This document shows positions 5,852-64,000 of a DNA stretch of 64,000 nucleotides, in pieces. Both the position numbers and the translations under genes were made by a program. The stretch is from Lachnospiraceae bacterium AC2028 (lineage in GTDB: Bacteria; Bacillota; Clostridia; Lachnospirales; Lachnospiraceae). The notes beneath the pieces are model-generated. The model was not told the origin of the DNA, did no database searches, and was given only the letters and a program-made list of their open reading frames with translations. Location of the stretch: NCBI GenBank assembly GCA_000702685.1, contig JNJD01000006.1, forward strand, positions 372,001 through 436,000. Direction: 5' to 3'. Every line of letters starts with the position of its first letter. The stretch's first letter is position 1.

Positions 5852-6781
5852 TCAGGACTGTCTCAGACAATACAGATCGATCAGATAAGATCTGTAATTT
5901 TGGTAATACTTAAGGAACTTTATCAGTTTCAAAGCATGACCGGGCTTTCTGTTCTCCAGCATCTCACATCTTCTTTTCATCATCATGGTGTGAGAAGAAA
6001 GTATTTTCATATCCCCGGCAGAGGCCGAAAACTCTTTAGCCGCTTTTTCGGATTGCTCACAGGCAAAGAGCATATTCCTAAACAGTTCTGCCCTTTTTGC
6101 CCTGTTATGATAATTTCCGAATGTTGAAGTATTGTGGGCATGAATCCTGTGCCATACAAGATTGCGGTGAAGTACATACAATCCGTCCGCACACTGTGCA
6201 AGCCGCCACATCCGGTCATCCTGAGCCCATCCGTCAAACCAAAACTGCTCTGCTCTGTCAAAAAATGTCTTTCTGACGCACATACAGCATCCGATGGCTC
6301 CTATATACAGACTCCGGTTTCCCAGTTTGATCTTCTCAAGAATACCGTTATCAGGCATTTTATCCCTGATATTCTTCGGAGCCTTGAATGTCGGATCTTC
6401 GGGAGCCCACGGAAGATAATCGGAGCAAAGAACCGAGCAATCTTCATGCTCCTGCATGATCTTCTCCATAACAGCGATCTTCTCCGGATCCCATCTGTCA
6501 TCCTGATCCGAAAAAAGGATAAGATCACACGTTGCCAAAGAAGCCGCATGGTTAAAATTGTTTGCAAACCCCAGGTTATCGGGATTTACATAAACACGCC
6601 ATTTTTCATCGAGGCCGTGCCGGGAGATATATTCCCGTACTATCTCAACCGTATTATCGGTTGAACCATCGTCACAGACTATCAGTTCATCCGCGGATCT
6701 GCTCTGTTCACGTATCGTGTCCAGCTGCTCTTCGATATACTCAGCCCCGTTGTAGGTAGCCATTATCACAGATACTGACAT
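5852..6781 (-). CDS. GT2 glycosyltransferase (rhamnosyltransferase-like)
   Basis: A 309-residue GT-A fold family 2 glycosyltransferase. N-terminal VIMATYNGAEYIEEQLDTI, CDDGSTDNT (about residues 36-44) and the metal-binding FSDQDDRWDPEKI (about 91-103) are the usual nucleotide-sugar elements; the SDQDD form is common in rhamnosyltransferase-like members. No membrane helix is evident, so it would act at the cytoplasmic face. It is first in the transcription unit that starts at the promoter 6803-6830, 15 bases or so after the predicted transcript start. Donor and acceptor are not predictable from sequence. Confidence 0.88.
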   Translation of the reverse strand: MSVSVIMATYNGAEYIEEQLDTIREQSRSADELIVCDDGSTDNTVEIVREYISRHGLDEKWRVYVNPDNLGFANNFNHAASLATCDLILFSDQDDRWDPEKIAVMEKIMQEHEDCSVLCSDYLPWAPEDPTFKAPKNIRDKMPDNGILEKIKLGNRSLYIGAIGCCMCVRKTFFDRAEQFWFDGWAQDDRMWRLAQCADGLYVLHRNLVWHRIHAHNTSTFGNYHNRAKRAELFRNMLFACEQSEKAAKEFSASAGDMKILSSHTMMMKRRCEMLENRKPGHALKLIKFLKYYQNYRSYLIDLYCLRQS

Positions 6782-6802
6782 AAAAAAAGCCCAACCTTTT
6801 TA

Positions 6803-6830
6803 ATTATACGTACTTCAGAATAAATGTCAA
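6803..6830 (-). promoter_or_regulatory. sigma-A promoter inside the capsule locus
   Basis: On the minus strand TTGACA (6830-6825) and TATAAT (6808-6803), both perfect consensus, are 16 bases apart. They lie in the AT-rich 107-base gap between the GT2 genes at 6889-7908 and 5852-6781, about 21 bases before the latter's start. The predicted start of transcription is near 6796. No hairpin terminator is visible in the gap, so readthrough from upstream remains possible. Confidence 0.8.
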
Positions 6831-6888
6831 TTTTTTACTTAGAAATATTAAATTTTTTGACATCGAATACTAAAACGGCAATTATTCG

Positions 6889-7908
6889 TCAGGTGTTGTA
6901 GTCTCTTTTTATGATAAATCTCAGCCTGAGCATCTCGGCAATCAGGTTCATAAAAAGCTTGTTGTAATGCTTCAGATAATATCCCTTTGCACCGCTTCTG
7001 ATGTAAGGATTTTTCCTGAACTCCGGAACATTCCTTCGAAGGAATTCATGCGTCCTGTTTACAAGTTTACGTCTGGAACCAAATCCCTTTACAAAACCGA
7101 TCCTGTTAAGTGAACTGCACAGAAGAACCTTTCCGACAAAATACTCCAGTTCGAAATTATAATCATTTCTCAGGTTCTTACTTTCATAAAAGCGGATAAG
7201 TGCATCAAACACGTTAAATATGTCAGCCACTTTTTCCGGTCTGGCGTTCGTCATGGTGGAGCCTGCGTGAAGAGTCCTGGAACTGAGAGCCTCTTCAATA
7301 TAAACCGGCTTCCTGATCCAGGGGAGCAGTTCTATAAAAAATGCCGTATCCTCGTAAATGCACCCTTCGGGATATCTGGCTCCGGACGCCTCCAAAACAG
7401 TTCTTTTGAAAAGCGTGGTGAACATGCTTACATTGGCGTCAATGAACATTTCCCTGTTATTGCGGCAGATCGGACGCATATCCATCGCCCTGACAACGAC
7501 CTCAAGGTCATTCTCATATCTCACCGCCTTGTATCCGCATCCCACAAAGTCCGCATCATGCTCCTTTGCGGCACCATACATCTTTTGAACCCATTCAGGA
7601 TCAAAACAGTCGTCCGAATCAAGGCAGGTGATATACTCGCCTGTGCACACGTCGAAAGCCAGGTTTCTTGCACTGCCCTGACCTCCGTTCGGCTTGGTGA
7701 TCACTTTGAACGTTTCCGGATACCTGTCCGCATATTCTTTGATGATATCCGGAGACTTTCCATCCGTAGATCCGTCATCCACAACGATCACTTCGATATT
7801 CTCTTTTCCGATGCTCTGACAAACAAGACTGTCAAAACACCTTCGCATAAGCTCTCCCGTGTTATAGACAGGGATGATGACACTTACCTTCTTCATAAGA
7901 TAATTCAT
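6889..7908 (-). CDS. GT2 glycosyltransferase
   Basis: A 339-residue family 2 glycosyltransferase with VSVIIPVYNTGELMRRCFDSL at the N-terminus, VVDDGSTDG near residue 45, NGGQGSARNLA near 78 and the metal-binding DSDDCFDPEW near 97-106. The C-terminal 130 residues are basic and helical without a clear membrane span. The start gives MNYLMKKVS; the in-frame ATG four codons on is an alternative. It begins 6 bases after the kinase-fold gene ends, within the capsule operon, and is the last gene before the internal promoter at 6803-6830. Substrate unknown. Confidence 0.88.
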   Translation of the reverse strand: MNYLMKKVSVIIPVYNTGELMRRCFDSLVCQSIGKENIEVIVVDDGSTDGKSPDIIKEYADRYPETFKVITKPNGGQGSARNLAFDVCTGEYITCLDSDDCFDPEWVQKMYGAAKEHDADFVGCGYKAVRYENDLEVVVRAMDMRPICRNNREMFIDANVSMFTTLFKRTVLEASGARYPEGCIYEDTAFFIELLPWIRKPVYIEEALSSRTLHAGSTMTNARPEKVADIFNVFDALIRFYESKNLRNDYNFELEYFVGKVLLCSSLNRIGFVKGFGSRRKLVNRTHEFLRRNVPEFRKNPYIRSGAKGYYLKHYNKLFMNLIAEMLRLRFIIKRDYNT

Positions 7909-7914
7909 ATATTC

Positions 7915-9204
7915 CTAATTTACTATATACGAAAAGTATACTCTTCCGATCTTGCTTCTGAGAATGCGTGCCGCTTCGTCATCGGGCATCCCCCCTGCTT
8001 CCGAATATATAAGCATGGCGGAAGCCGCATCGTCCGATATAAATTCGTTGTATCTGTAATCCCCGCACACATTTCTGATAAGATACCTTCCCTCGTAGGT
8101 ATCCGATTCCCACGGAGGTTTACCGTCAATGCTGGCAGCGCCGAAATCGATCAGCAAATACTTCTCCACACGGCCGCTTTGATCCGTTACTACCATTATG
8201 TTCGTATCCCTCAGATCATTATGTACTATATTGGTCCGGTAAAGCACATCGAGGATCTTACATAAAAACTCACCCAGAAGTCTGATCGAATCACGGTCCA
8301 GCCGGTGCTTTTTCAGGTGATCATCCAGCGTTTCATACGGAACATACGGATACTTAACCCAGGAGTGATCATCCGCATGTTTTTCCATCAGGACAAAACA
8401 GTCTTTATCCTCTCCGCTTTCAATGATCCTCTTTTGAACAGTGATTTCATTTTTTATTGCCTTTACGGGTCCCGGCTCATTGCCCTTAATAAAGGATTTC
8501 TTATTTCCTTCGTTAAATATATATATATTTCCTCCGGAGTTGCTGTTAAGCAATCTCCCTTTGCTGTCATACGAACCGGCGCTTATGACATTTTCTCTGA
8601 TCAAACGGTCTGTAAACGCCTCGCATGAATGTTTCTTATCTTTACCGATCCGGAAAAACTTGAGCCTGAAATATGTTCTCATTCTGAGCAGGCTCATCTT
8701 TTTTGACAGTTTGATCCGGACTTTACCCGAAAAAGTTATTCTTTTACCGATCTTTCTCGAATAGATCGTATTATTTGCATGACTGATCTTTACATTGTTT
8801 TTCAATGTATAATCGACAAAAAAATCCTCAACGCCCTTTTCATCTTTCATAAGGCATTTCATATACCGGGATATTATATTTTCCCTAAGCCAGGAAGCAC
8901 GGTTCGAAAGGCAATACGCTGTATTCAGCCATAGAAAAGCAACGTCTTCGGAAGAAATATCGAATCCGGATTTTTTCTTTTTACGATACCATTCAGCCAG
9001 TCCCGCTTCTTTAAAGGTCTGAAGAACAATGATCCGTTTTCTGTCACCGTCAATGAAACCGAACCGGTTACTTTCACTTTTTAATGTCTCCGGAACAGTA
9101 TTCAGAAAAAACAATACTTCAATAGGATTGCACTCGGGATCGTCCAAAATAATGTAAAAGGCTTTATTCTCTTCCAATATTTTGACTACTTCTTTTACAG
9201 TCAC
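7915..9204 (-). CDS. kinase-fold protein (WaaP/APH-like) of the capsule locus
   Basis: A 429-residue protein with an unrecognised N-terminal part (1-220) and a C-terminal protein-kinase-like fold. Visible kinase elements are SFIKG with a possible ATP lysine at 240, HND at 328-330 in HNDLRDTNIMV (catalytic loop with Asp330 and Asn335), and DFG at 353-355. The HxDxxxxN form is like lipopolysaccharide kinases (WaaP/KdkA) and aminoglycoside phosphotransferases more than Ser/Thr kinases. Lying among glycosyltransferase genes, 6 bases from the next, it may phosphorylate a sugar of the repeat unit or a lipid carrier; this is inference. A regulatory protein kinase is the alternative. Confidence 0.65.
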   Translation of the reverse strand: MTVKEVVKILEENKAFYIILDDPECNPIEVLFFLNTVPETLKSESNRFGFIDGDRKRIIVLQTFKEAGLAEWYRKKKKSGFDISSEDVAFLWLNTAYCLSNRASWLRENIISRYMKCLMKDEKGVEDFFVDYTLKNNVKISHANNTIYSRKIGKRITFSGKVRIKLSKKMSLLRMRTYFRLKFFRIGKDKKHSCEAFTDRLIRENVISAGSYDSKGRLLNSNSGGNIYIFNEGNKKSFIKGNEPGPVKAIKNEITVQKRIIESGEDKDCFVLMEKHADDHSWVKYPYVPYETLDDHLKKHRLDRDSIRLLGEFLCKILDVLYRTNIVHNDLRDTNIMVVTDQSGRVEKYLLIDFGAASIDGKPPWESDTYEGRYLIRNVCGDYRYNEFISDDAASAMLIYSEAGGMPDDEAARILRSKIGRVYFSYIVN

Positions 9205-55795: not shown

Positions 55796-56935
55796 ATGAA
55801 AAAATTACTGTTGCTTATCAAAAAAGATCCGATGCTTCCGGTATCGCTTCTTGCGGCGGTGATCTCGCTGTTCATCACACCGCCTTCGAAAAACCTTATT
55901 TCAGCCATAGACTGGCATACTCTCGGAATACTCTTCATGATGCTGACGGTCCTCGAAGGATTCAAGCAGGAAGATCTGTTCCAGCCCCTATTGAAACTCA
56001 GTTCAAGATTTTCCACAATGGCGACGCTGTCGCTCTTTCTGATATTCGGAGTGTTCTTCACTTCGATGTTCGTGACCAATGACGTATCTCTGATAATCTT
56101 CGTTCCCCTCACGATCCTTCTTTTCAGAAGCGTTAAAAGAGAAGAATGCATCCTTCCGATAATCTCGATGGAAAACATCGCTGCGATCCGCGGCTCACTG
56201 CTCATGCCTTTCGGAAGTCCGCAGAACCTTTTTCTGTTCAACAGTTCCGGTGTCAGCGCCGGCAGGTTCATATTCCACATGTCGCCACTGTGTGCGGGCA
56301 GTGCGATCCTTCTTATCGTATTCGTGCTTGTCTGCTACAGGAAGGAAAAGGGACGCAAGGTGGAGTTCGAACTTGATCTCGTTCCCTGGAAAAAAGAAAA
56401 CAGGATAAGACGCGTTACATATCTTATACTGTTTCTGATGATACTCATCGTCATAGTATCGAGAACGGCTCTCTGGCCGTTTGCGGTGGGAATCGTTCTC
56501 ATATCCGTTCTCATCGTCAACAGGAAGCTTCTTAAAAGTGTCGATTATGTTCTCCTCGTTACATTCTTCTGCTTCTTCGTATTCTCTTCTTCCATCACCG
56601 CAAATCCTGCGATAGAAAGCTTTCTTGCACGTACCGTAACCGGAAGGGAATACATATCGGTGATCCTGCTCAGCCAGATTATCTCCAATGTGCCCGCTTC
56701 GATCGTACTGTATCCGTTCTCCGATAATTTCGCCGGACTCATCTACGGCGCGGATACTGCAGGACTCGTATCACTAATAGGTTCTCTTGCTTCGGTGATC
56801 AATTACCGTATCTATGTGAGAGAATATCCCGGAAAGGGCAAGGACTTCATCAAGACCTTCACTCTTATAAGCTGGATGTTCTTCATCCTCGTAGTCATGC
56901 CCGGATACTGGCTGAGCCATTGGAATTTCTTCTGA
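55796..56935 (+). CDS. SLC13/ArsB-like ion transporter family protein
   Basis: A 379-residue membrane protein with about ten hydrophobic spans. Two re-entrant-loop motifs typical of the ion transporter superfamily are visible: FVTNDVSLIIFVPL (about 92-105) and SNVPASIVLYPFS (about 303-315). The superfamily carries dicarboxylates, arsenite or sodium; the substrate here cannot be told. It is shorter than DASS transporters (about 450). No Shine-Dalgarno site precedes the ATG. Stands alone between a divergent regulator and a terminator. Confidence 0.8.
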   Translation: MKKLLLLIKKDPMLPVSLLAAVISLFITPPSKNLISAIDWHTLGILFMMLTVLEGFKQEDLFQPLLKLSSRFSTMATLSLFLIFGVFFTSMFVTNDVSLIIFVPLTILLFRSVKREECILPIISMENIAAIRGSLLMPFGSPQNLFLFNSSGVSAGRFIFHMSPLCAGSAILLIVFVLVCYRKEKGRKVEFELDLVPWKKENRIRRVTYLILFLMILIVIVSRTALWPFAVGIVLISVLIVNRKLLKSVDYVLLVTFFCFFVFSSSITANPAIESFLARTVTGREYISVILLSQIISNVPASIVLYPFSDNFAGLIYGADTAGLVSLIGSLASVINYRIYVREYPGKGKDFIKTFTLISWMFFILVVMPGYWLSHWNFF

Positions 56936-56954
56936 GCATGCTTTGCAAAAACGA

Positions 56955-56988
56955 AACAGCAGGCCCGGTATGAGCCTGCTGTTTTTTA
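56955..56988 (+). terminator. intrinsic terminator between convergent genes
   Basis: AACAGCAGGC (56955-56964), 9-base loop, GCCTGCTGTT (56974-56983), then TTTTTAT. It ends the transporter gene; the minus strand reads TCGTTTTTG after the stem and may end the operon 57000-63943. Confidence 0.9.
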
Positions 56989-56999
56989 TATGTCTTTTT

Positions 57000-57407
57000 T
57001 CAGATCAGTTTGCGGATATGAAGGATGTTCTGTCCGTCCTTATATTCGTATTCGATACTGTCCATACTCTTTTTGACCATGAAGATACCGAGTCCGCCGA
57101 TGTCACGATCTTCAGCGGAAAGAGTGATATCGGGATCTTCCTTGGCAAGAGGATCGTAAGGAATTCCGTGATCGATGAAAGTGATCGATATGGCGGGAGG
57201 ATCCTTCTCAACCTCAACGCGCACCGTTGCCGGGCCGGTTTCCGGTTTGTATGCATAGTGTGCGATATTGACGAAAAGCTCTTCTACGGCAACATCTATC
57301 TGGGTATGGATCTTGACGGAACATTCAAGCTTTTCGATCTCTTCGTCAACAAACGCGAGAACCTGATCGAGATTTTCAACCAATGCTTCAATGTTTAATT
57401 CCCGCAT
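57000..57407 (-). CDS. RsbW/SpoIIAB-like anti-sigma factor ATPase
   Basis: A 135-residue HATPase_c protein of the GHKL serine-kinase type. N box AVEELFVNIAHYAY with Glu and Asn, G1 box FIDHGIPYDP, and G2 box GGLGIFMVKKSMDSIEYEY are all intact. Such proteins bind either a sigma factor or an unphosphorylated STAS protein, and phosphorylate the latter. Here the STAS protein at 63644-63943 and the phosphatase 3 bases upstream are the natural partners. Which target it inhibits is unknown; no sigma factor gene is in the window. Confidence 0.9.
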   Translation of the reverse strand: MRELNIEALVENLDQVLAFVDEEIEKLECSVKIHTQIDVAVEELFVNIAHYAYKPETGPATVRVEVEKDPPAISITFIDHGIPYDPLAKEDPDITLSAEDRDIGGLGIFMVKKSMDSIEYEYKDGQNILHIRKLI

Positions 57408-57410
57408 GTC

Positions 57411-59114
57411 TCACTCCTTTCCGGATCCCAGGTACTTGAATCCGAGCATTGTAATATCATCAAACTGAGGTGCTTCACCTACAAACAGATCGATATCGGA
57501 ACGGACATTTTCGAGCATTGTCTTGGGATCCGCATCGGGATTCTTATTGAGTGCTTCGAGCATTCTGTCGATACCGAAGAGAACATCATCGGATCTTGTG
57601 GCTTCGGTAACACCGTCGGTGTAAACATACAGGCTGTCTCCGGGATTGAGCTTAAATTCATGCTCCTTGAACTTGATGCCCGGAAGCGTTGCAACAGCGG
57701 GTGAGTGACGGTACTTGACGAGTTCAAACCTGCCGTCCTTCCTGCGGATCGCGGGATGCTCATGACCTGCGTTGGCAGCGTATCCCTTACCTGTGGAGAT
57801 CTGGATGATCGCAAACCATACGGTTACGAACAGCTCAGCTTCATTGCCTTCACCGAGCTGGTCATTGGCATATGCCAGAACCTCTGCGGGTGAACCGCCC
57901 ATCTGCGCTCTGTTCTTGATAAGGGTCTTGGCAATGACCATGAACAGTGCAGCGGGAACTCCCTTACCGGACACGTCAGCCATGACAAGACCGATATGAT
58001 CGTCATCGATAAGGAAGAAGTCATAGAAGTCACCACCGACTTCCTTAGCGGGACTCATGGAAGCATAAAGATCGAATTCCGTTCTGTCGGGGAAAGCGGG
58101 GAATATTCTGGGCAGCATGTCCGCCTGTATCTGTGTGGCGACATTGAGCTCCGCTCCGATACGCTCCTTCTCCGCGGTGATCTTGGTAATGTTATCGATG
58201 TATTCGTTGATACCGATCTCCATTGCGAGGACGCTTTCCGCAAGCACCTGTATCTCGTCGCGGTTGCGTACCTTCTTTAGGTTTTCGGATACTTCGTTCT
58301 CATTCTCCACGAAGTATGCTGCTTCATGAGAGATAAGCTTGATCGGCTTGATGAGAAGATTGACCAGTATGAATGCGGTAATGATGAAGAGCACCGCCGA
58401 AATGATACATACGATGACAAGCACGATAAAGATGTACTGATTAACATCGGTCTGGAGCGTACGCATGGGTGTTTCAACACCTACGAATGCGATCGTCTTC
58501 CCGTTATTGACTATCGGATATACCGCGGTGATGTTATATCCGTATGTACCCTCTGAAATATAATATCCGTCGTAAGGGATACCGGTTCTGTAGGATATGC
58601 GGGCACCTTCGATGTAATCGGGCAGAATGGGGCTCTTGTCGCCGAGGAAGAATCTGTACTCTTCCATCGGATATGTATCCATGATGTAGCAGATAGGATT
58701 CCAGGTTCCGTCGGCAAAGCTTTCGGGTGTGTAGACATCCAGTTCTTCTATATTGATGATACCGACGAAAATATCGTTAACATCCATGCCTTCTCTCATA
58801 TCAAGAAGGATCCCGAGAAGATTCTGATAGCGGTCTGAATTGATTATCTCTTCTATCTCTTCAGCACCTTCTCCGGTGGTGTTGTATTTATACGAAAGCT
58901 CACCCCACGATTCCAGTTCTTCCTTGTCATCGAAGAGAAGATCGACAGACTTTGCTATCTGATATCCGATATCATTATAGTGTCTGTAGATCGAATCACG
59001 GTATGTCCTGATACCGACAATGATCGAACCTGCGGTAACCAGCGCAACGAACACCGCGAGTCCGAGGATCAGTCTTCCCGTCAGTCCGGTAACGTAGATT
59101 TTCTTACTCTTCAT
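57411..59114 (-). CDS. SpoIIE-type PP2C serine phosphatase with membrane sensor and HAMP
   Basis: Start ATG 59114, overlapping the GH3 stop (567 residues); a GTG 15 bases upstream is an alternative. A first helix near 9-31, an extracytoplasmic sensor (about 35-230), a second helix near 232-254, a HAMP-like linker, and the PP2C/SpoIIE domain (about 325-565) with VGGDFYDFF, MADVSGKG, TDGVTEA and FDDITML, where the metal-binding aspartates are intact. It should dephosphorylate the STAS protein and so reverse the action of the RsbW-like ATPase. It links an outside signal to the partner switch. Confidence 0.92.
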   Translation of the reverse strand: MKSKKIYVTGLTGRLILGLAVFVALVTAGSIIVGIRTYRDSIYRHYNDIGYQIAKSVDLLFDDKEELESWGELSYKYNTTGEGAEEIEEIINSDRYQNLLGILLDMREGMDVNDIFVGIINIEELDVYTPESFADGTWNPICYIMDTYPMEEYRFFLGDKSPILPDYIEGARISYRTGIPYDGYYISEGTYGYNITAVYPIVNNGKTIAFVGVETPMRTLQTDVNQYIFIVLVIVCIISAVLFIITAFILVNLLIKPIKLISHEAAYFVENENEVSENLKKVRNRDEIQVLAESVLAMEIGINEYIDNITKITAEKERIGAELNVATQIQADMLPRIFPAFPDRTEFDLYASMSPAKEVGGDFYDFFLIDDDHIGLVMADVSGKGVPAALFMVIAKTLIKNRAQMGGSPAEVLAYANDQLGEGNEAELFVTVWFAIIQISTGKGYAANAGHEHPAIRRKDGRFELVKYRHSPAVATLPGIKFKEHEFKLNPGDSLYVYTDGVTEATRSDDVLFGIDRMLEALNKNPDADPKTMLENVRSDIDLFVGEAPQFDDITMLGFKYLGSGKE

Positions 59115-60712
59115 GCCTCTTCTACCCACTTTCTGTATAATTGATATGTGAATCCGTTATTGGCCACGTGATTGGGTTTCTTATGTCCGCCGGCGAGTCC
59201 TATCTCTTTGAGGACATTGCCGTATGTACCGGGTTTCATCAAAAGCACCTGCGGCCTTCGTATGTAATCCATCTGTCTGAGATCCGCATAATCCGGATTG
59301 TATTCCGATAATTTCTCATCAAGCTTATTCGATATATCGGTGTTGAAACCGACATAACCCTTCGATGATACCGCGGCTATGAAATATCTTCCCGGAGTAG
59401 TATCATGCTCTATCCCGATGGTCCATTCCGAAATGCTGTTCTTATCATCAAGTTCCGATATCGCCTTTTCTATCAGATGTATATCCATCTTTTCACCGGC
59501 GATATTGAGTGTCTGCGAGCTTCGCATGATAAACTCGAATATCGGGGACTTTCCGAGGAACCCCTGGACGCGGAGTATATCCTCCATGACATATCTGTAC
59601 AGCCCGGAGAAATTTGTTATCACGGGTTTATAGCATTTACCAAGTTCCAATTCCAGTGGCAGATATGTCGTCTCCCCTCCTTCGGCCGGAAGGAATTCAT
59701 AGAACGCCGTCCTGGGCATGAACACGTAATTGAAATCATTATCGTCCACGGCGGCTCCCATATAACATTCGGATGCACAATATGCCAGATAATAGTACTG
59801 CGCGTCACCGATGTATGCCCTGAGAGTTTTGTCTTCGGTAAAATAGGACCTGTTGCTGACGCCGCTCACAAGCTTCAGTCCCGGCCAGAGTTTCTTGGCT
59901 ATGCCGTAAGCTCCTCCCATGCACAGGGTCCTGACCTCATTAAGTCTGTCATTGCTCACCGGAAGCGAAAGCAGGTAATTTCTTATATCTTCCGGAATCT
60001 TGTAACCCTCCGGTATACGGCGCTTTGCCATGGCGCTGAGCACCTCTTCCCAGAATTCTTCCAGATATGTGAAGAATATCAGAAGGTCATACAGGAATAT
60101 GCTTTCCAGGACGGTTATATCCCTCTCCGCAAATCCTACCCAGAGCTTTACGAAAAGCCTGTCTCCGAGAGAATCGGAAAAAAGTGTTTTGAATCCTCCG
60201 GCAAAATGCGATTCGTCCAGACTGCCTTCCTCATACAGGTATCTGAAAAGAGATTCCGACAAAAGAAGATCCTTCGTCGATTCTTTGGAAAGATCGGTCC
60301 TGAACGTATTGATCATGAATCTCTTTCCGCCGAATTCATTTATTATCTCTTCCTGACGGTATCCGACGGCATTACCATATCTTCTGAAAGCTTCGGAGGT
60401 CACGGGGATATTCTTGGCTATGCCCTCAGTCCCCGAGGTGCGGCAGTAATTTTCAACGGGATATACGGTCAGAACATTGTTCTTACCTTCAAGCATCGAA
60501 TCAACATAACCGCGGAAAGGTTCATAATGAGAAAGCGGAAGTCTTCTGCGATATTCATCGATGCCGTCTATGGTACCGAAATCATATGTCTTTCCGATCT
60601 CGGTATCCTTATTATCCCGCATCAATGCGAGCAGATTGTTCCGGTTGATCTCATCCGCATGAAAACAATCTTCTTCAAGCTGATGCCAGTATTCTGCATT
60701 ATCGAAATGCAT
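59111..60712 (-). CDS. GH3 family acyl-acid amido synthetase-like enzyme
   Basis: A 533-residue GH3-superfamily protein, named for plant auxin-conjugating enzymes. Adenylate-forming motifs are CRTSGTEGIAKNIP (90-103, phosphate loop) and, further on, YLPLELELGKCYKPVITNFSGLYRYVMEDI, followed by a C-terminal cap ending HVANNGFTYQLYRKW. Family members activate a carboxylic acid with ATP and join it to an amino acid or other amine. AGGGGGG precedes the start. Its four-base stop overlap with the phosphatase gene shows coupling. The substrate is unknown. Confidence 0.85.
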   Translation of the reverse strand: MHFDNAEYWHQLEEDCFHADEINRNNLLALMRDNKDTEIGKTYDFGTIDGIDEYRRRLPLSHYEPFRGYVDSMLEGKNNVLTVYPVENYCRTSGTEGIAKNIPVTSEAFRRYGNAVGYRQEEIINEFGGKRFMINTFRTDLSKESTKDLLLSESLFRYLYEEGSLDESHFAGGFKTLFSDSLGDRLFVKLWVGFAERDITVLESIFLYDLLIFFTYLEEFWEEVLSAMAKRRIPEGYKIPEDIRNYLLSLPVSNDRLNEVRTLCMGGAYGIAKKLWPGLKLVSGVSNRSYFTEDKTLRAYIGDAQYYYLAYCASECYMGAAVDDNDFNYVFMPRTAFYEFLPAEGGETTYLPLELELGKCYKPVITNFSGLYRYVMEDILRVQGFLGKSPIFEFIMRSSQTLNIAGEKMDIHLIEKAISELDDKNSISEWTIGIEHDTTPGRYFIAAVSSKGYVGFNTDISNKLDEKLSEYNPDYADLRQMDYIRRPQVLLMKPGTYGNVLKEIGLAGGHKKPNHVANNGFTYQLYRKWVEEA

Positions 60713-60765
60713 AAATCCCCCCTGAGATTTTTTTATGTTTCTGCAGTCTTGGCAGTTCTTGTTTT

Positions 60766-62490
60766 CTATAAAAGAATGATTATCGTATTCATTCCAAGCG
60801 TGTAACTGTGATGCACATAGGTAGCGGTTTTTTCCAGCATGCTGATGCCCATGTAGAAATCTTCGTCCTCATCGACATGTTCGAACGGATTGTATCTTTC
60901 TCCGGCGCATCTGATACGCACGCCTGTTGTTTCCTCGAGAGCAAAGCTTCTCATATCTATGGTCTTAAGATCCGAATTGCTCTTCTGTATCATGACGGTA
61001 AGCAGCTCTTCTATGGCAAGACCCATCTTATAGATGTTCTTTTTGTCCATATTATTGGCCTGGCAGAATTCCTTGATCCGCTCGCTCGCATCGCACACGC
61101 TCTCTATATCTGCGGCAACCGAATAATCAAGGACCTTGTTCTCTCTTTCCAGATGATCGTCAAGAAGAAGCATTCCGGAAAGCGGAACCTTGCCGCTCCT
61201 GCTCTTCGCCGATATCACGGTAACGATCATCCATGTAAGGACGATAGAGAGCAATGCGGATATCGGAAGGAAGTTCCAGAGATAAAGCTCTCTCCTGATC
61301 CCGTATAAAAACAGAACGGCTATGGGGAATATCAGTCTTCTCATCACGGTGATGAAATTGGAAAGACCGATACGTCCAGAGGTATTAAAATATACCGACC
61401 ATATGGTTGAAATGACATTTGCGAGCACGGAAAGAGAAAGTGCAAGCAAAGGAAGTGTCAGATCCTCCGGTGAATTGAACAGTATTTCCAGCGGTCCGTG
61501 AAGCAGAATAAGTACCGCTCCGAATATCAGGCTCATGAAAAAAGCCACAACGATCTCTATCTTGAACAGAACACGGATACCGGTATTTTCATGAGCCGCA
61601 TAATAAACTCCCGTCATGGGTGCGGCTGCCTGGGGTATTCCGGACACTATGATAAGCGACAGTTCGGAAAGGGTATTAAGTATTGCCCATACCGCAGCCC
61701 CGCTCACACCGGCGATCTTAAGGATCAGGGCATTGATTATAAGAAGTCTTACCGCATCGTAGAAATTACCGAGTGCCGTCGGGCTTCCGAAACGGATTAT
61801 GGATCCCGTTCCCTTAACTCCGAACAGTTTCAGGGATATCCTGTAATCCGATCCCTTACGGTTAAGGCATGCGAAACCGTAAATACATGCAATAAGAGTC
61901 GATACAACGCTGGCGATCGCTGCTCCCGTTATCCCCATCGGATAAATGAACAAAAGCACTGCGTCCAATATGGTATCAAGGCTCACCATGATGAATGTCA
62001 TCATAGTGATCTCCTTGCGTTTTCCGGCCAGCTGAAGATAGAAAACCGGAGAATAAAGCATCATAAAGGGAAGTGCACCCAGCAGCGATACATAAATATA
62101 CCGGTATATGTATTCATTTAACGCACTGCCCTGCGCGAGAAGATCCGAAAGAGGTCTGCAGAAAAACGCAAATGCCGAAAAAAGAATTCCGCAGATGAAT
62201 GTAAGCGTCAGGGAACTGTGATAATACCTGACGGCCGATTGAATGTTCTCTTTTCCCGCCTCACGCGCGGAAAGGAGGCTTCCGCCCGAAGCTATCAGGG
62301 CACCGATACTGCAGAGCACAAGATACACAGGCATCGACAGCGTGACCGCACTGAGTCCGTCCTTACCGAGTACAAGCGAGATAAAGACGCTGTCTATCAG
62401 AGCATTGACCGTTCCACCCAGTATTGAGAACATGATCGGGAAAAGATTGATCAGATATTGTCTGCGTAAAAAACTGTCGTCGTAGTTCAT
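60766..62490 (-). CDS. MATE-type transporter fused to a degenerate RsbW-like HATPase domain
   Basis: A 574-residue fusion. Residues 1-440 form a MATE/PST-type twelve-helix exporter (FLRRQYLINLFPIMFSILGGTVNALIDSVFISLVLGKDGL is the MATE start). From about 450 to the end is an HATPase_c-like domain: IEELLTVMIQ stands for the N box but without its asparagine, the G1 aspartate is replaced in CAGERYNPFEH, while GISMLEKTATYVHHSYTLGMNTI is like G2. ATP binding may thus be lost. The start overlaps the ATP-grasp stop by four bases. It could join the exporter directly to the partner switch. Confidence 0.88.
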   Translation of the reverse strand: MNYDDSFLRRQYLINLFPIMFSILGGTVNALIDSVFISLVLGKDGLSAVTLSMPVYLVLCSIGALIASGGSLLSAREAGKENIQSAVRYYHSSLTLTFICGILFSAFAFFCRPLSDLLAQGSALNEYIYRYIYVSLLGALPFMMLYSPVFYLQLAGKRKEITMMTFIMVSLDTILDAVLLFIYPMGITGAAIASVVSTLIACIYGFACLNRKGSDYRISLKLFGVKGTGSIIRFGSPTALGNFYDAVRLLIINALILKIAGVSGAAVWAILNTLSELSLIIVSGIPQAAAPMTGVYYAAHENTGIRVLFKIEIVVAFFMSLIFGAVLILLHGPLEILFNSPEDLTLPLLALSLSVLANVISTIWSVYFNTSGRIGLSNFITVMRRLIFPIAVLFLYGIRRELYLWNFLPISALLSIVLTWMIVTVISAKSRSGKVPLSGMLLLDDHLERENKVLDYSVAADIESVCDASERIKEFCQANNMDKKNIYKMGLAIEELLTVMIQKSNSDLKTIDMRSFALEETTGVRIRCAGERYNPFEHVDEDEDFYMGISMLEKTATYVHHSYTLGMNTIIILL

Positions 62491-63632
62491 AGTAAAGTCG
62501 AGAACTTAGCCTTCTTTCCTTTAAACACTTCATCAAGCATCTTTTTGGTATCATCCCCGAAAAGAGGTCCGCAGGTAACCTGCATATCATTGATACCGCA
62601 AAGAGTGAAATTCACTTCAACAAGTACGGCTTCACCGTTCTCATCGATCGCAACATCCCATCCGACAAGTCTGAAATGGCTTATTGAGGGGTGTGCATTC
62701 TTTACCAGTTCATACGCCTTGTCCATATATGCAAGACGCTTGTCTCCGAATCTGTATCCGAGTTCAGGATGCGTATCCGTCTGTCGCCCGTCATGGAAAA
62801 CTCCCGTTGCGGTGAGCTGTCCGTTTTCACCTATCCCGCAGATGACCCCTCCGTGGGAACTGTTATCGACGCGGTCTCCGCCCACACCGATCCTCGACAT
62901 TGCACGAAGAACCTTGACCTCGCATCCGTCCATCCAAGTCATGATGCGGATGGTATTTACAGAGGAAGGATTAAGTGCGGCCATATCCGCATGCTGCTTT
63001 ATAGGCTCCTGTATGATCGCATCCGTCTTAATGCCGCGTAGAATCCTGCGGAATTCATTGAATTTATCGTCGCCGGAAATAAAATGCACTCCGAAACCGC
63101 CCTCGGAAAGCACCGCCTGCTTGAGGACCACTTCGTCCTCCGCAAGGATGCGCTTTTTTACCTGCTCGGGAGTGATCAGCCTGCCGCTTCCATCAAGCCA
63201 GCTTTTGCCGACACGCATGGCAACGGTCCTCGGCTGAGGAGTGTCCGGAAAGAGCTTACTATAGTAACACTTATTGTCCATATAACACGATTCACGCCTG
63301 TCATTGTAGAACCGGTCAATGTACATAAAATAAAAATCTTCCGGAAGGTATTCCGGATAGAATTTTCCGCCGGAGCGGTATGTGTAAAGCCTGTGATATT
63401 TATCGTCCATATGACGTACATAGGGACGATAGAAATCATCTATGGCCTTCTTCTGCTCGGCGGTCAGTTCCGGTATATCCTTAAAGGAAGGCAGCGTGAT
63501 CTTACGCGAAAGACGCATTACGGCCGCGTTGTTCAGAAGATCGAGACTGGTACTTCCTTCATGATATTTACCGGTAAGTATTGTATAGACGTTATCTTTA
63601 AATACCTGAAAACCGGAAGGTAAAGTATTCAT
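62487..63632 (-). CDS. ATP-grasp ligase (sugar-transfer-associated type)
   Basis: I choose ATG 63632 (381 residues), 14 bases after GAGGAG; GTG 63647 is possible but sits on that site. The C-terminal half is an ATP-grasp fold of the sugar-transfer-associated type: VVLKQAVLSEGGFGV, LNPSSVNTIRIMT, RVDNSSHGGVICGI and VEVNFTLCGIND carry the expected ATP- and metal-binding residues. ATP-grasp enzymes join a carboxylate, via acyl phosphate, to an amine or thiol. It follows the STAS gene and precedes the MATE fusion, both closely. Substrate unknown. Confidence 0.85.
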   Translation of the reverse strand: MNTLPSGFQVFKDNVYTILTGKYHEGSTSLDLLNNAAVMRLSRKITLPSFKDIPELTAEQKKAIDDFYRPYVRHMDDKYHRLYTYRSGGKFYPEYLPEDFYFMYIDRFYNDRRESCYMDNKCYYSKLFPDTPQPRTVAMRVGKSWLDGSGRLITPEQVKKRILAEDEVVLKQAVLSEGGFGVHFISGDDKFNEFRRILRGIKTDAIIQEPIKQHADMAALNPSSVNTIRIMTWMDGCEVKVLRAMSRIGVGGDRVDNSSHGGVICGIGENGQLTATGVFHDGRQTDTHPELGYRFGDKRLAYMDKAYELVKNAHPSISHFRLVGWDVAIDENGEAVLVEVNFTLCGINDMQVTCGPLFGDDTKKMLDEVFKGKKAKFSTLL

Positions 63633-63643
63633 ATAAAAAGAGA

Positions 63644-63943
63644 TCACTCCTCAATATTGAGTATATCGATGAATCCGGTGACCTCGAAGATCTCCATGAC
63701 TTCTTCGTTGGCATTTCTGATCGTCATGCTTCCCTGCTTGTTCATGATCTTCTGTGCGGATAAAAGAACACGAAGACCTGCGGAAGAAACATACGCAAGA
63801 TTCTTAAGATCAAAGATGAGTTCCTTGATGCCTTCGATGTTGTTCTTGACCTCTTCTTCAAGCTGAGGTGCCGTCATGGTATCAAGTCTTCCTTCAAGAG
63901 CGATCTCAAGTTTTGTTCCGTCAAGAGTTTTGTCGATAGTCAT
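63644..63943 (-). CDS. STAS-domain anti-anti-sigma factor
   Basis: A 99-residue single-STAS protein of the SpoIIAA/RsbV type. LEGRLDTMTAPQLEEEV and FDLKNLAYVSSAGLRVLLSAQK carry the family pattern; Ser54, before AGLR, aligns with the serine phosphorylated by RsbW-type kinases. AAGGAGA stands 8 bases before the ATG. It begins the run of six genes, and only 57 bases upstream remain in the window, with no clear promoter, so the operon may have further genes beyond. Confidence 0.92.
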   Translation of the reverse strand: MTIDKTLDGTKLEIALEGRLDTMTAPQLEEEVKNNIEGIKELIFDLKNLAYVSSAGLRVLLSAQKIMNKQGSMTIRNANEEVMEIFEVTGFIDILNIEE

Positions 63944-64000
63944 ATTGTTCTCCTTTTTATATGATCACCTGGCGTTGGGATCTTCACCACGTGACAATTT

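Follow-up and report, generated by a model that had tools for sequence, protein, structure and literature searches.

A probable seven-gene operon of Lachnospiraceae bacterium AC2028 that may join a partner switch to the making and export of a small molecule

This report deals with a gene cluster in a 64,000-nucleotide (nt) stretch of Lachnospiraceae bacterium AC2028 (assembly GCA_000702685.1, contig JNJD01000006.1, positions 372,001 to 436,000), hereafter called the window, to which all coordinates refer unless a label of the type L032 is given; such labels denote the genomic stretches that were compared. The source genome comprises 2.77 Mb and is 99.6% complete, and the closest named relatives found are metagenome-assembled genomes of Lachnospiraceae. 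A first-pass annotation had placed six co-directional, tightly packed open reading frames (ORFs) on the minus strand between 57000 and 63943, and both their coordinates and the domains assigned to them were confirmed, the latter by Pfam for the STAS, ATP-grasp, MATE, GH3, SpoIIE and free HATPase proteins (Table 1). The operon had been thought to start with the STAS gene; this had to be corrected, as a GGDEF-domain gene located only 21 nt upstream, with AAGGAG in the gap, is the probable first gene. The locus is thus most likely a seven-gene operon extending from 57000 to about 65215. The ORF next upstream of the GGDEF gene is divergent, and no riboswitch or other known RNA was found near the operon start at E≤1 in 3.7 kb.

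Table 1. Features of the operon and its surroundings (aa, amino acids)
Feature	Position	Strand	Evidence and remarks
GGDEF-domain protein, 3' end (416 aa at full length)	63965..64000, on to about 65215 (L002 10966-12216)	-	GGDEF 1.4e-24
STAS protein, anti-anti-sigma type, 99 aa	63644..63943	-	Pfam STAS 2.2e-15; TIGR00377 above cut-off
ATP-grasp ligase, PF14397	62487..63647	-	386 aa from GTG; 381 aa from the likelier ATG at 63632
MATE-type exporter with C-terminal RsbW/SpoIIAB-like domain, 574 aa	60766..62490	-	Pfam MatE 2.1e-18
Exporter tail (residues about 455-574), a degenerate HATPase domain	60766..61128	-	Alignments, predicted fold
GH3-family acyl-adenylate/amide ligase, 533 aa	59111..60712	-	Pfam GH3 1.5e-42
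Membrane SpoIIE-type phosphatase	57411..59114	-	Pfam SpoIIE 1.9e-45; PP2C domain, metal motifs intact
RsbW-type serine kinase, 135 aa	57000..57407	-	Pfam HATPase_c_2 6.1e-23; N-box EELFVN and G1 DHG intact
Terminator-like hairpin	56954..56984	-	13 pairs, T-tail, 15 nt past the final stop codon
CitMHS-type transporter gene	55796-56935	+	Converges on the operon end

The close packing of the genes, with overlaps or near-overlaps, is evident from the junctions read from the sequence. Both the ATP-grasp/MATE and the GH3/SpoIIE junctions consist of a 4-nt ATGA overlap, a gap of 3 nt separates the SpoIIE gene from that of the HATPase kinase, and 53 nt lie between the MATE and GH3 genes, where a G-rich stretch precedes the ATG. 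The STAS and ATP-grasp genes either overlap by 4 nt (GTGA) or, if the ATG start is used, are 11 nt apart; the ORFs of three relatives (L032, L034, L035) favour the ATG. ORFs were called by a simple longest-frame rule, and for the SpoIIE gene the start at 59114 is the best placement, a GTG at 59129 being disfavoured. The supposed absence of internal promoters and terminators was not borne out by a consensus scan. Promoter-like sites occurred as often as in shuffled sequences (16 vs 15.6) and hence give no signal either way, terminator-like sites numbered 14 vs 6.9 (standard deviation 3.2) in shuffles, and six weaker ones lie inside genes on the operon strand. A single transcript is therefore inferred from gene spacing and conservation.

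As far as can be judged from sequence, the partner-switch module is complete: it comprises a STAS protein with a serine available for phosphorylation, a kinase with intact N-box and G1 motifs, and a PP2C-type phosphatase. The candidate phospho-acceptor serine lies in the motif YVSSAGLRV and is conserved in 19/19 STAS rows of at least 100 bits; we take it to be Ser54, the position suggested by comparison with RsbV and SpoIIAA. The SpoIIE-type protein retains the metal-binding aspartates and has hydrophobic helices recognizable in its sequence. Foldseek matches of its outer domain to Cache/PDC-like structures (best E 2.4e-4, query TM score 0.30) are too weak to name a ligand of the presumed sensor. 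Alignments indicate that the active sites of the STAS protein, kinase, phosphatase, GH3 enzyme and ATP-grasp ligase appear intact.

The exporter contains two MatE repeats (PF01554) and scores 100 bits with TIGR00797, below its cut-off of 147. Although Pfam and NCBIfam scans of the window exporter left the HATPase part undetected, the earlier assignment of a MATE-HATPase fusion is upheld by a family profile, by a relative in which Pfam detects the domain (L145) and by the predicted fold. An AlphaFold model of residues 425-574 has a mean pLDDT of 71, and in a Foldseek search against the PDB its best matches are UsfX, SpoIIAB and RsbW, with E from 4.6e-8 and query TM scores of 0.56-0.68. Compared with free kinases, the N-box Asn of the tail is replaced by Val, the G1 Asp by Cys and the lid is shortened, while the N-box Glu pair is retained. 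In SpoIIAB, these residues bind Mg-ATP and the Glu acts as the catalytic base. The tail is nevertheless better conserved than the transporter part: in comparison with L033 it is 88% identical (nonsynonymous divergence, dN, 0.085) vs 74% (dN 0.178), with L035 87 vs 75% and with L032 97 vs 92%, synonymous sites being near saturation in these comparisons. Hence, the domain appears to be maintained and shows no sign of decay.

Exporters of this build form a family. The tail profile matched 124/396 genomes of the family at E≤0.001, free kinases included, and 31/392 genomes of a class-wide sample at E≤1e-15. In that sample, 35 of 37 matches fall within frames of 570-673 aa and thus agree in length with the fusion, size being the sole criterion there. 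Altogether 61 fusions were collected and 60 analysed, L121 being dropped because of its 884-aa frame and misaligned motif. The set is not random, as it consists of 40 stretches hand-picked near the top of the profile listing, GH3 loci, relatives of the window and the window itself; the profiles for STAS, SpoIIE, GH3 and ATP-grasp were, moreover, built from the same loci that they scored. The Asn and Asp of the ATP site are both kept in 42 of the 60 fusions and lost in 18. A SpoIIE gene lies within 6 kb of 13/18 degenerate vs 9/42 intact tails, and a separate kinase within 6 kb of 11/18 vs 5/42. A tree built by maximum likelihood groups 15 of the 18 degenerate tails in one clade (support 100/99) and places the other three (L047, L134, L138) in a second; many independent losses of the ATP site were accordingly rejected, two changes being sufficient.

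All 15 members of the larger degenerate clade have a STAS, SpoIIE or kinase gene in the same-strand run, compared with 10/42 intact-tail exporters. For all degenerate tails together the count is 16/18 with at least one switch gene in the run (Fisher vs 10/42, 6e-6, with rows that are related and hand-picked), so the association describes one conserved lineage and not many events. Within this clade, lineages outside the window's own carry exporters only 25-41% identical to the window protein, and the linkage between exporter and switch is therefore old. The same-run STAS counts include two proteins in which STAS domains are fused to APH-type phosphotransferase domains (L133 3087-4262 and L134 8547-9746), both adjoining MATE/RsbW fusions; in L136, a separate APH-type protein adjoins STAS and a fusion.

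That the gene order might recur in related genomes was a check proposed with the first-pass annotation, and it does so in close relatives and, partially, in distant Lachnospiraceae. All seven genes are kept in the order GGDEF, STAS, ATP-grasp, MATE, GH3, SpoIIE, kinase in L032, L033, L034 and L035, and L036 has the same order up to a contig end within SpoIIE. The order STAS, MATE, GH3, SpoIIE, kinase is found in L038, where the contig is cut just upstream of STAS, in L054 and, with two genes after STAS, in L052; the last two carry a second MATE fusion downstream. Shorter versions are GH3, MATE, SpoIIE (L037), ATP-grasp, MATE, SpoIIE (L128) and MATE, a protein with two ATP-grasp stretches, GH3, SpoIIE (L061). 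GH3 proteins above the cut-off were found in 36/298 genomes of the family. They occupy 47 places, of which one is the window's own, 30 lie in 28 analysed stretches chosen regardless of the presence of MATE, and 16, including the 15 weakest, were left out. Within 6 kb, the 28 stretches contain a MATE/RsbW fusion in 8 cases, SpoIIE in 7, STAS in 6, a kinase in 4 and at least one switch gene in 9. For SpoIIE, which has 124 matches in 60 family genomes (PP2C-type included), 7/28 compares with about 1% expected by position if a genome of 3.1 Mb is assumed (P about 6e-9 under this simple model).

Several peculiarities of these loci may be recorded here. At fourfold sites of the comparison with L033 and L034, the ATP-grasp gene diverges by 0.69-0.73, the MATE, GH3 and SpoIIE genes by 0.44-0.60, and GGDEF and STAS by 0.30-0.36 (ATP-grasp vs GGDEF with L033, Fisher 1.6e-9); the middle of the operon (60766-63647) may have been exchanged between relatives or may evolve faster, the first genes staying. 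In L041 (4098-8934), two adjacent dCache-SpoIIE proteins, the second with a C-terminal kinase domain, are encoded upstream of STAS, GH3 and a MATE/RsbW fusion. A protein weakly matching an ADP-ribosyltransferase family, just below the cut-off, is encoded in L037 (3013-5256) upstream of GH3, MATE and SpoIIE.

As regards the output of the switch, the first-pass annotation had noted that no sigma gene is present at the locus, which is correct, and the genome as a whole also lacks a SigB/F/G-type factor above cut-off and a second switch. Only one protein exceeds the HATPase_c_2 cut-off (a weaker match is a WalK-like histidine kinase), there is one SpoIIE-type phosphatase (the second match being a Stp1-type PP2C), and of two PF01740 STAS matches one is the stand-alone protein of the operon and the other belongs to a SulP-type permease; the only RsbW-type kinase, SpoIIE-type phosphatase and stand-alone STAS protein found in the genome are thus those of the operon. 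Its seven Sigma70_r2 genes encode RpoD, a SigH-like protein, FliA, three extracytoplasmic function (ECF) types and one RpoD-like protein without detected region 4, and 0/7 reach the SigBFG cut-off of 234 bits. The RpoD-like protein (271 aa, L075 1222-2037, contig C11 of the same genome) has regions 2 and 3 matched. With a single switch in the genome and no sigma factor reaching the cut-off, a classical sigma target seems unlikely.

Such a target would make the locus a classical switch acting on an unlinked sigma factor, its association with ligases and exporter being mere co-expression. The STAS protein, RsbW-type kinase and SpoIIE phosphatase are indeed the parts of the sigma-B and sigma-F switches, and FliA or one of the ECF factors might still be addressed. 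We nevertheless consider this reading quite improbable, since the SigBFG result comes from a genome 99.6% complete and the linkage has been kept with such divergent exporters. The likeness to RsbU-RsbV-RsbW and SpoIIE-SpoIIAA-SpoIIAB of Bacillus consists in three shared protein families and in an exporter tail predicted to fold like SpoIIAB and RsbW; in contrast to those systems, equivalog scores are far below the cut-offs here, and one RsbW-like domain is degenerate and fused to a transporter.

It was in any case too narrow to assume that the known partner switches control sigma factors, as other outputs are described in the available portions of two papers (PMC8457831, PMC8256260), and a GGDEF gene heads this operon. 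According to the accessible text of the former, the SiaABCD, HsbRDA and BgrSTUWV switches act on diguanylate cyclases (PMC8457831). In the operon, a diguanylate cyclase gene is likewise present, as judged by its GGDEF domain, the activity being predicted only; its GGDEF motif is intact and the gene is retained in L032-L036, hence in all six loci of the window clade. It is conceivable that, as in SiaABCD, this protein is the main output, that dephosphorylated STAS activates the synthesis of cyclic di-GMP, and that ligases and exporter are simply co-transcribed or lie downstream of this messenger. In the same direction point the short distance between the GGDEF and STAS genes and the SpoIIE protein, whose best NCBIfam score is that with SiaA (NF038263), although at 59 bits vs a cut-off of 700. 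The N-terminal part of the GGDEF protein, however, was not found outside the window clade among the 55 loci with analysed fusions, and a conserved dead kinase domain would be left unexplained, which makes a SiaABCD-like output unlikely. GGDEF as a general part of such loci was rejected on the same count; the only other GGDEF-domain matches are those of L120 (1 kb from an intact-tail fusion, on the other strand) and L122 (6 kb), to which L002 and L033 add matches that are not linked, at a distance of 8 kb. The likeness to SiaABCD of Pseudomonas aeruginosa lies in a membrane SpoIIE-type phosphatase, a dedicated kinase, a STAS-like protein and a diguanylate cyclase in one operon with a non-sigma output, features given for the most part in the available text of the paper (PMC8457831). 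The operon described here differs: its kinase is of the RsbW type, its STAS protein is a canonical Pfam STAS, and it additionally encodes two ligases as well as an exporter bearing a dead kinase domain.

Turning to the ligases, the ATP-grasp protein matches Pfam ATPgrasp_ST (PF14397, 1.3e-34), and what we take to be its ATP-grasp motifs are conserved in the 8 rows aligned; a single PDB match at chance level (E 0.32) was disregarded. The GH3 protein possesses the N-terminal, middle and C-terminal domains and the nucleotide-binding motifs TSGTEG, YCASECY and GLYRYVMED, that is, the full set known from OlsH and the plant GH3 acyl-acid amido synthetases. Its nearest solved relatives are plant GH3s, the best being AtGH3.12, a benzoate-glutamate ligase (E 1.1e-30), and its sole NCBIfam match is OlsH (NF052613), at 82.2 bits vs a cut-off of 620 and thus below membership.

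OlsH is a bacterial GH3 that joins fatty acids to ornithine, and bacterial GH3s have been proposed as makers of aminolipids, as far as the accessible text of the paper goes (PMC12493201). The window's GH3 might accordingly produce an N-acyl amino acid of the lyso-ornithine-lipid type, which the ATP-grasp ligase would extend and the MATE-type protein would flip, no soluble compound being exported in this case; a GNAT-type protein adjoining a degenerate exporter in L143 would fit this idea. The score with OlsH, a lyso-ornithine lipid synthetase, is far beneath its cut-off, however, no O-acyltransferase is found among the seven genes, and counterparts that encode nonribosomal peptide synthetases (NRPSs) suggest peptide-type products, so that an aminolipid pathway is very doubtful.

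The resemblance to a benzoate-glutamate ligase allows another explanation, namely that GH3 and ATP-grasp conjugate an incoming acid, in the rumen for instance a phenolic acid of plant origin, to an amino acid, that the MATE protein expels the conjugate and that the sensor detects the acid. MATE proteins are frequently drug exporters, and 3/7 related records carry rumen or omasum in their titles. Yet none of the seven genes of the operon encodes a catabolic enzyme or uptake system for such an acid, and biosynthesis is indicated by the reductase-ended NRPSs of the parallel loci L136, L145, L147 and L148; detoxification by conjugation is thus regarded as unlikely.

These parallel loci deserve closer description. 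Some fusions adjoin or lie near ATP-dependent enzymes that activate acids, including GH3, ATP-grasp and AMP-binding proteins (L112, L144) as well as NRPSs, the latter in L110 (on the other strand), L136, L142, L145, L147 and L148. In L145, one strand encodes a MATE fusion, a 2994-aa NRPS ending in a reductase, a phosphopantetheinyl transferase, STAS, SpoIIE and a kinase, which makes it a near-complete counterpart of the window operon, and L147 contains SpoIIE/kinase, STAS, an NRPS-reductase and a MATE fusion. The NRPS-linked exporters retain the ATP-site residues. Reductase-ended NRPS clusters of gut Clostridia are said, in work by Guo et al. of 2017, to yield peptide aldehydes and pyrazinones. 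NRPSs of this kind adjoin the same exporter family in L110, L136, L145, L147 and L148, with a switch gene in the run in 4/5 (not L110), whereas in the window operon GH3 and ATP-grasp stand where these loci have an NRPS. Meanwhile, the degenerate exporter of L143 is accompanied by a full switch, the GNAT-type protein and a dicarboxylate symporter, and no ligase. Five small related proteins, the one scanned matching Nif11, are encoded in L129 (2748-4521) in a run with a degenerate fusion, SpoIIE and a kinase; Nif11 is a domain of some peptide natural-product precursors. The NRPS and MATE/RsbW fusion of L142 have as a neighbour (6353-8335) a protein in which a condensation domain is joined to a cyclic-nucleotide-binding domain.

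The first-pass annotation had proposed a make-and-export system gated by serine phosphorylation. Its core, a make-and-export unit coupled to a full partner switch in which no sigma factor takes part, gains support from the recurrence of the gene order and from the lack, in the genome, of a SigB/F/G-type factor above cut-off and of a second switch. The proposal can be refined as to the link between switch and export, which, considering the predicted fold, is probably the degenerate C-terminal domain of the exporter. The exporter tail and the GGDEF protein are the candidate output partners of the STAS protein or the kinase. According to the reading we prefer, whose chances seem about evenly balanced, the locus is a self-contained make-and-export operon gated by the partner switch with the exporter as its direct target. 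The GH3 enzyme would activate a carboxylic acid as an adenylate and couple it with an amine, which is probably an amino acid. A second amide bond would be formed by the ATP-grasp ligase; the classes of both enzymes follow from homology and the substrates are presumed. The MATE protein would move the product, probably a small molecule of the amide type, over the membrane. An external signal would be sensed by the Cache-like domain of the SpoIIE-type phosphatase; given the intact active sites, the free RsbW-type kinase would phosphorylate STAS, probably at Ser54, and the phosphatase would reverse this. Dephosphorylated STAS might then dock on the dead RsbW-like tail, in the way STAS proteins dock on RsbW in sigma switches, and turn transport on or off. 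The GGDEF protein, co-encoded in the window lineage, is perhaps a second target. In a closely related reading, the partner of the tail would be the free kinase, which would thereby be anchored at the membrane.

A number of observations weigh against the preferred reading. The tail model has a mean pLDDT of no more than 71 and only 10-16% identity to solved folds. The clade of 15 is one lineage and does not amount to 15 independent events; the window, together with its nearest relatives, accounts for six of the rows. STAS, SpoIIE and kinase occur all together in just 9/15 runs of this clade: L037 is without kinase and STAS, L129 without STAS, and L140 without SpoIIE and STAS, the runs of L036, L061 and L128 ending at contig ends. 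In the second degenerate clade, the runs of L047 and L138 lack switch genes, and the STAS domains of L134 are those fused to APH-type kinase domains. Six intact-tail exporters (L041, L052, L054, L115, L145, L147) are accompanied by a separate kinase, so the ATP site is not simply lost once a kinase has been gained, and a rule tying degenerate tails strictly to the presence of a separate kinase was rejected; moreover, the runs of 32/42 intact-tail exporters are free of switch genes. Finally, 20/28 GH3 stretches lack a MATE fusion within 6 kb, and several other fusions have neighbours with no apparent tie to such enzymes, among them ArgRS, anthranilate synthase, a sulfate permease and an rRNA methylase, the link to biosynthesis therefore not being universal.

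The accessible part of a review gives further partner-switch outputs, secretion included (PMC8256260). In BtrUVW (Bordetella secretion) and SypA/SypE (Vibrio fischeri), partner-switch proteins act on something else than a known sigma factor, in one of the two cases on secretion, but no transporter with a fused RsbW-like domain is described for them in that part of the review (PMC8256260). A literature search based on titles and abstract openings of the best matches, with subscription journals thinly covered, found neither a transporter/RsbW-like fusion nor this cluster. MATE proteins fused to an RsbW-like domain are proposed here as a grouping, into which the window protein fits by its predicted fold.

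On a wider scale, and more tentatively than for the window itself, it may be that Clostridia possess a large class of MATE exporters with an RsbW-like domain that are controlled directly by STAS phosphorylation, many of them serving GH3, ATP-grasp or NRPS synthesis, and that in one clade the fused domain lost catalysis and became a pure STAS docking site, a sigma switch having been turned into a post-translational valve on secretion. If this is true, partner switching, best known for the control of sigma factors, would also act as a fast valve on small-molecule secretion by means of a dead kinase domain on an exporter. Some of these exporters are accompanied by GH3, ATP-grasp or NRPS genes, and the fusion could thus mark regulated metabolite clusters that have been missed by NRPS-centred mining.

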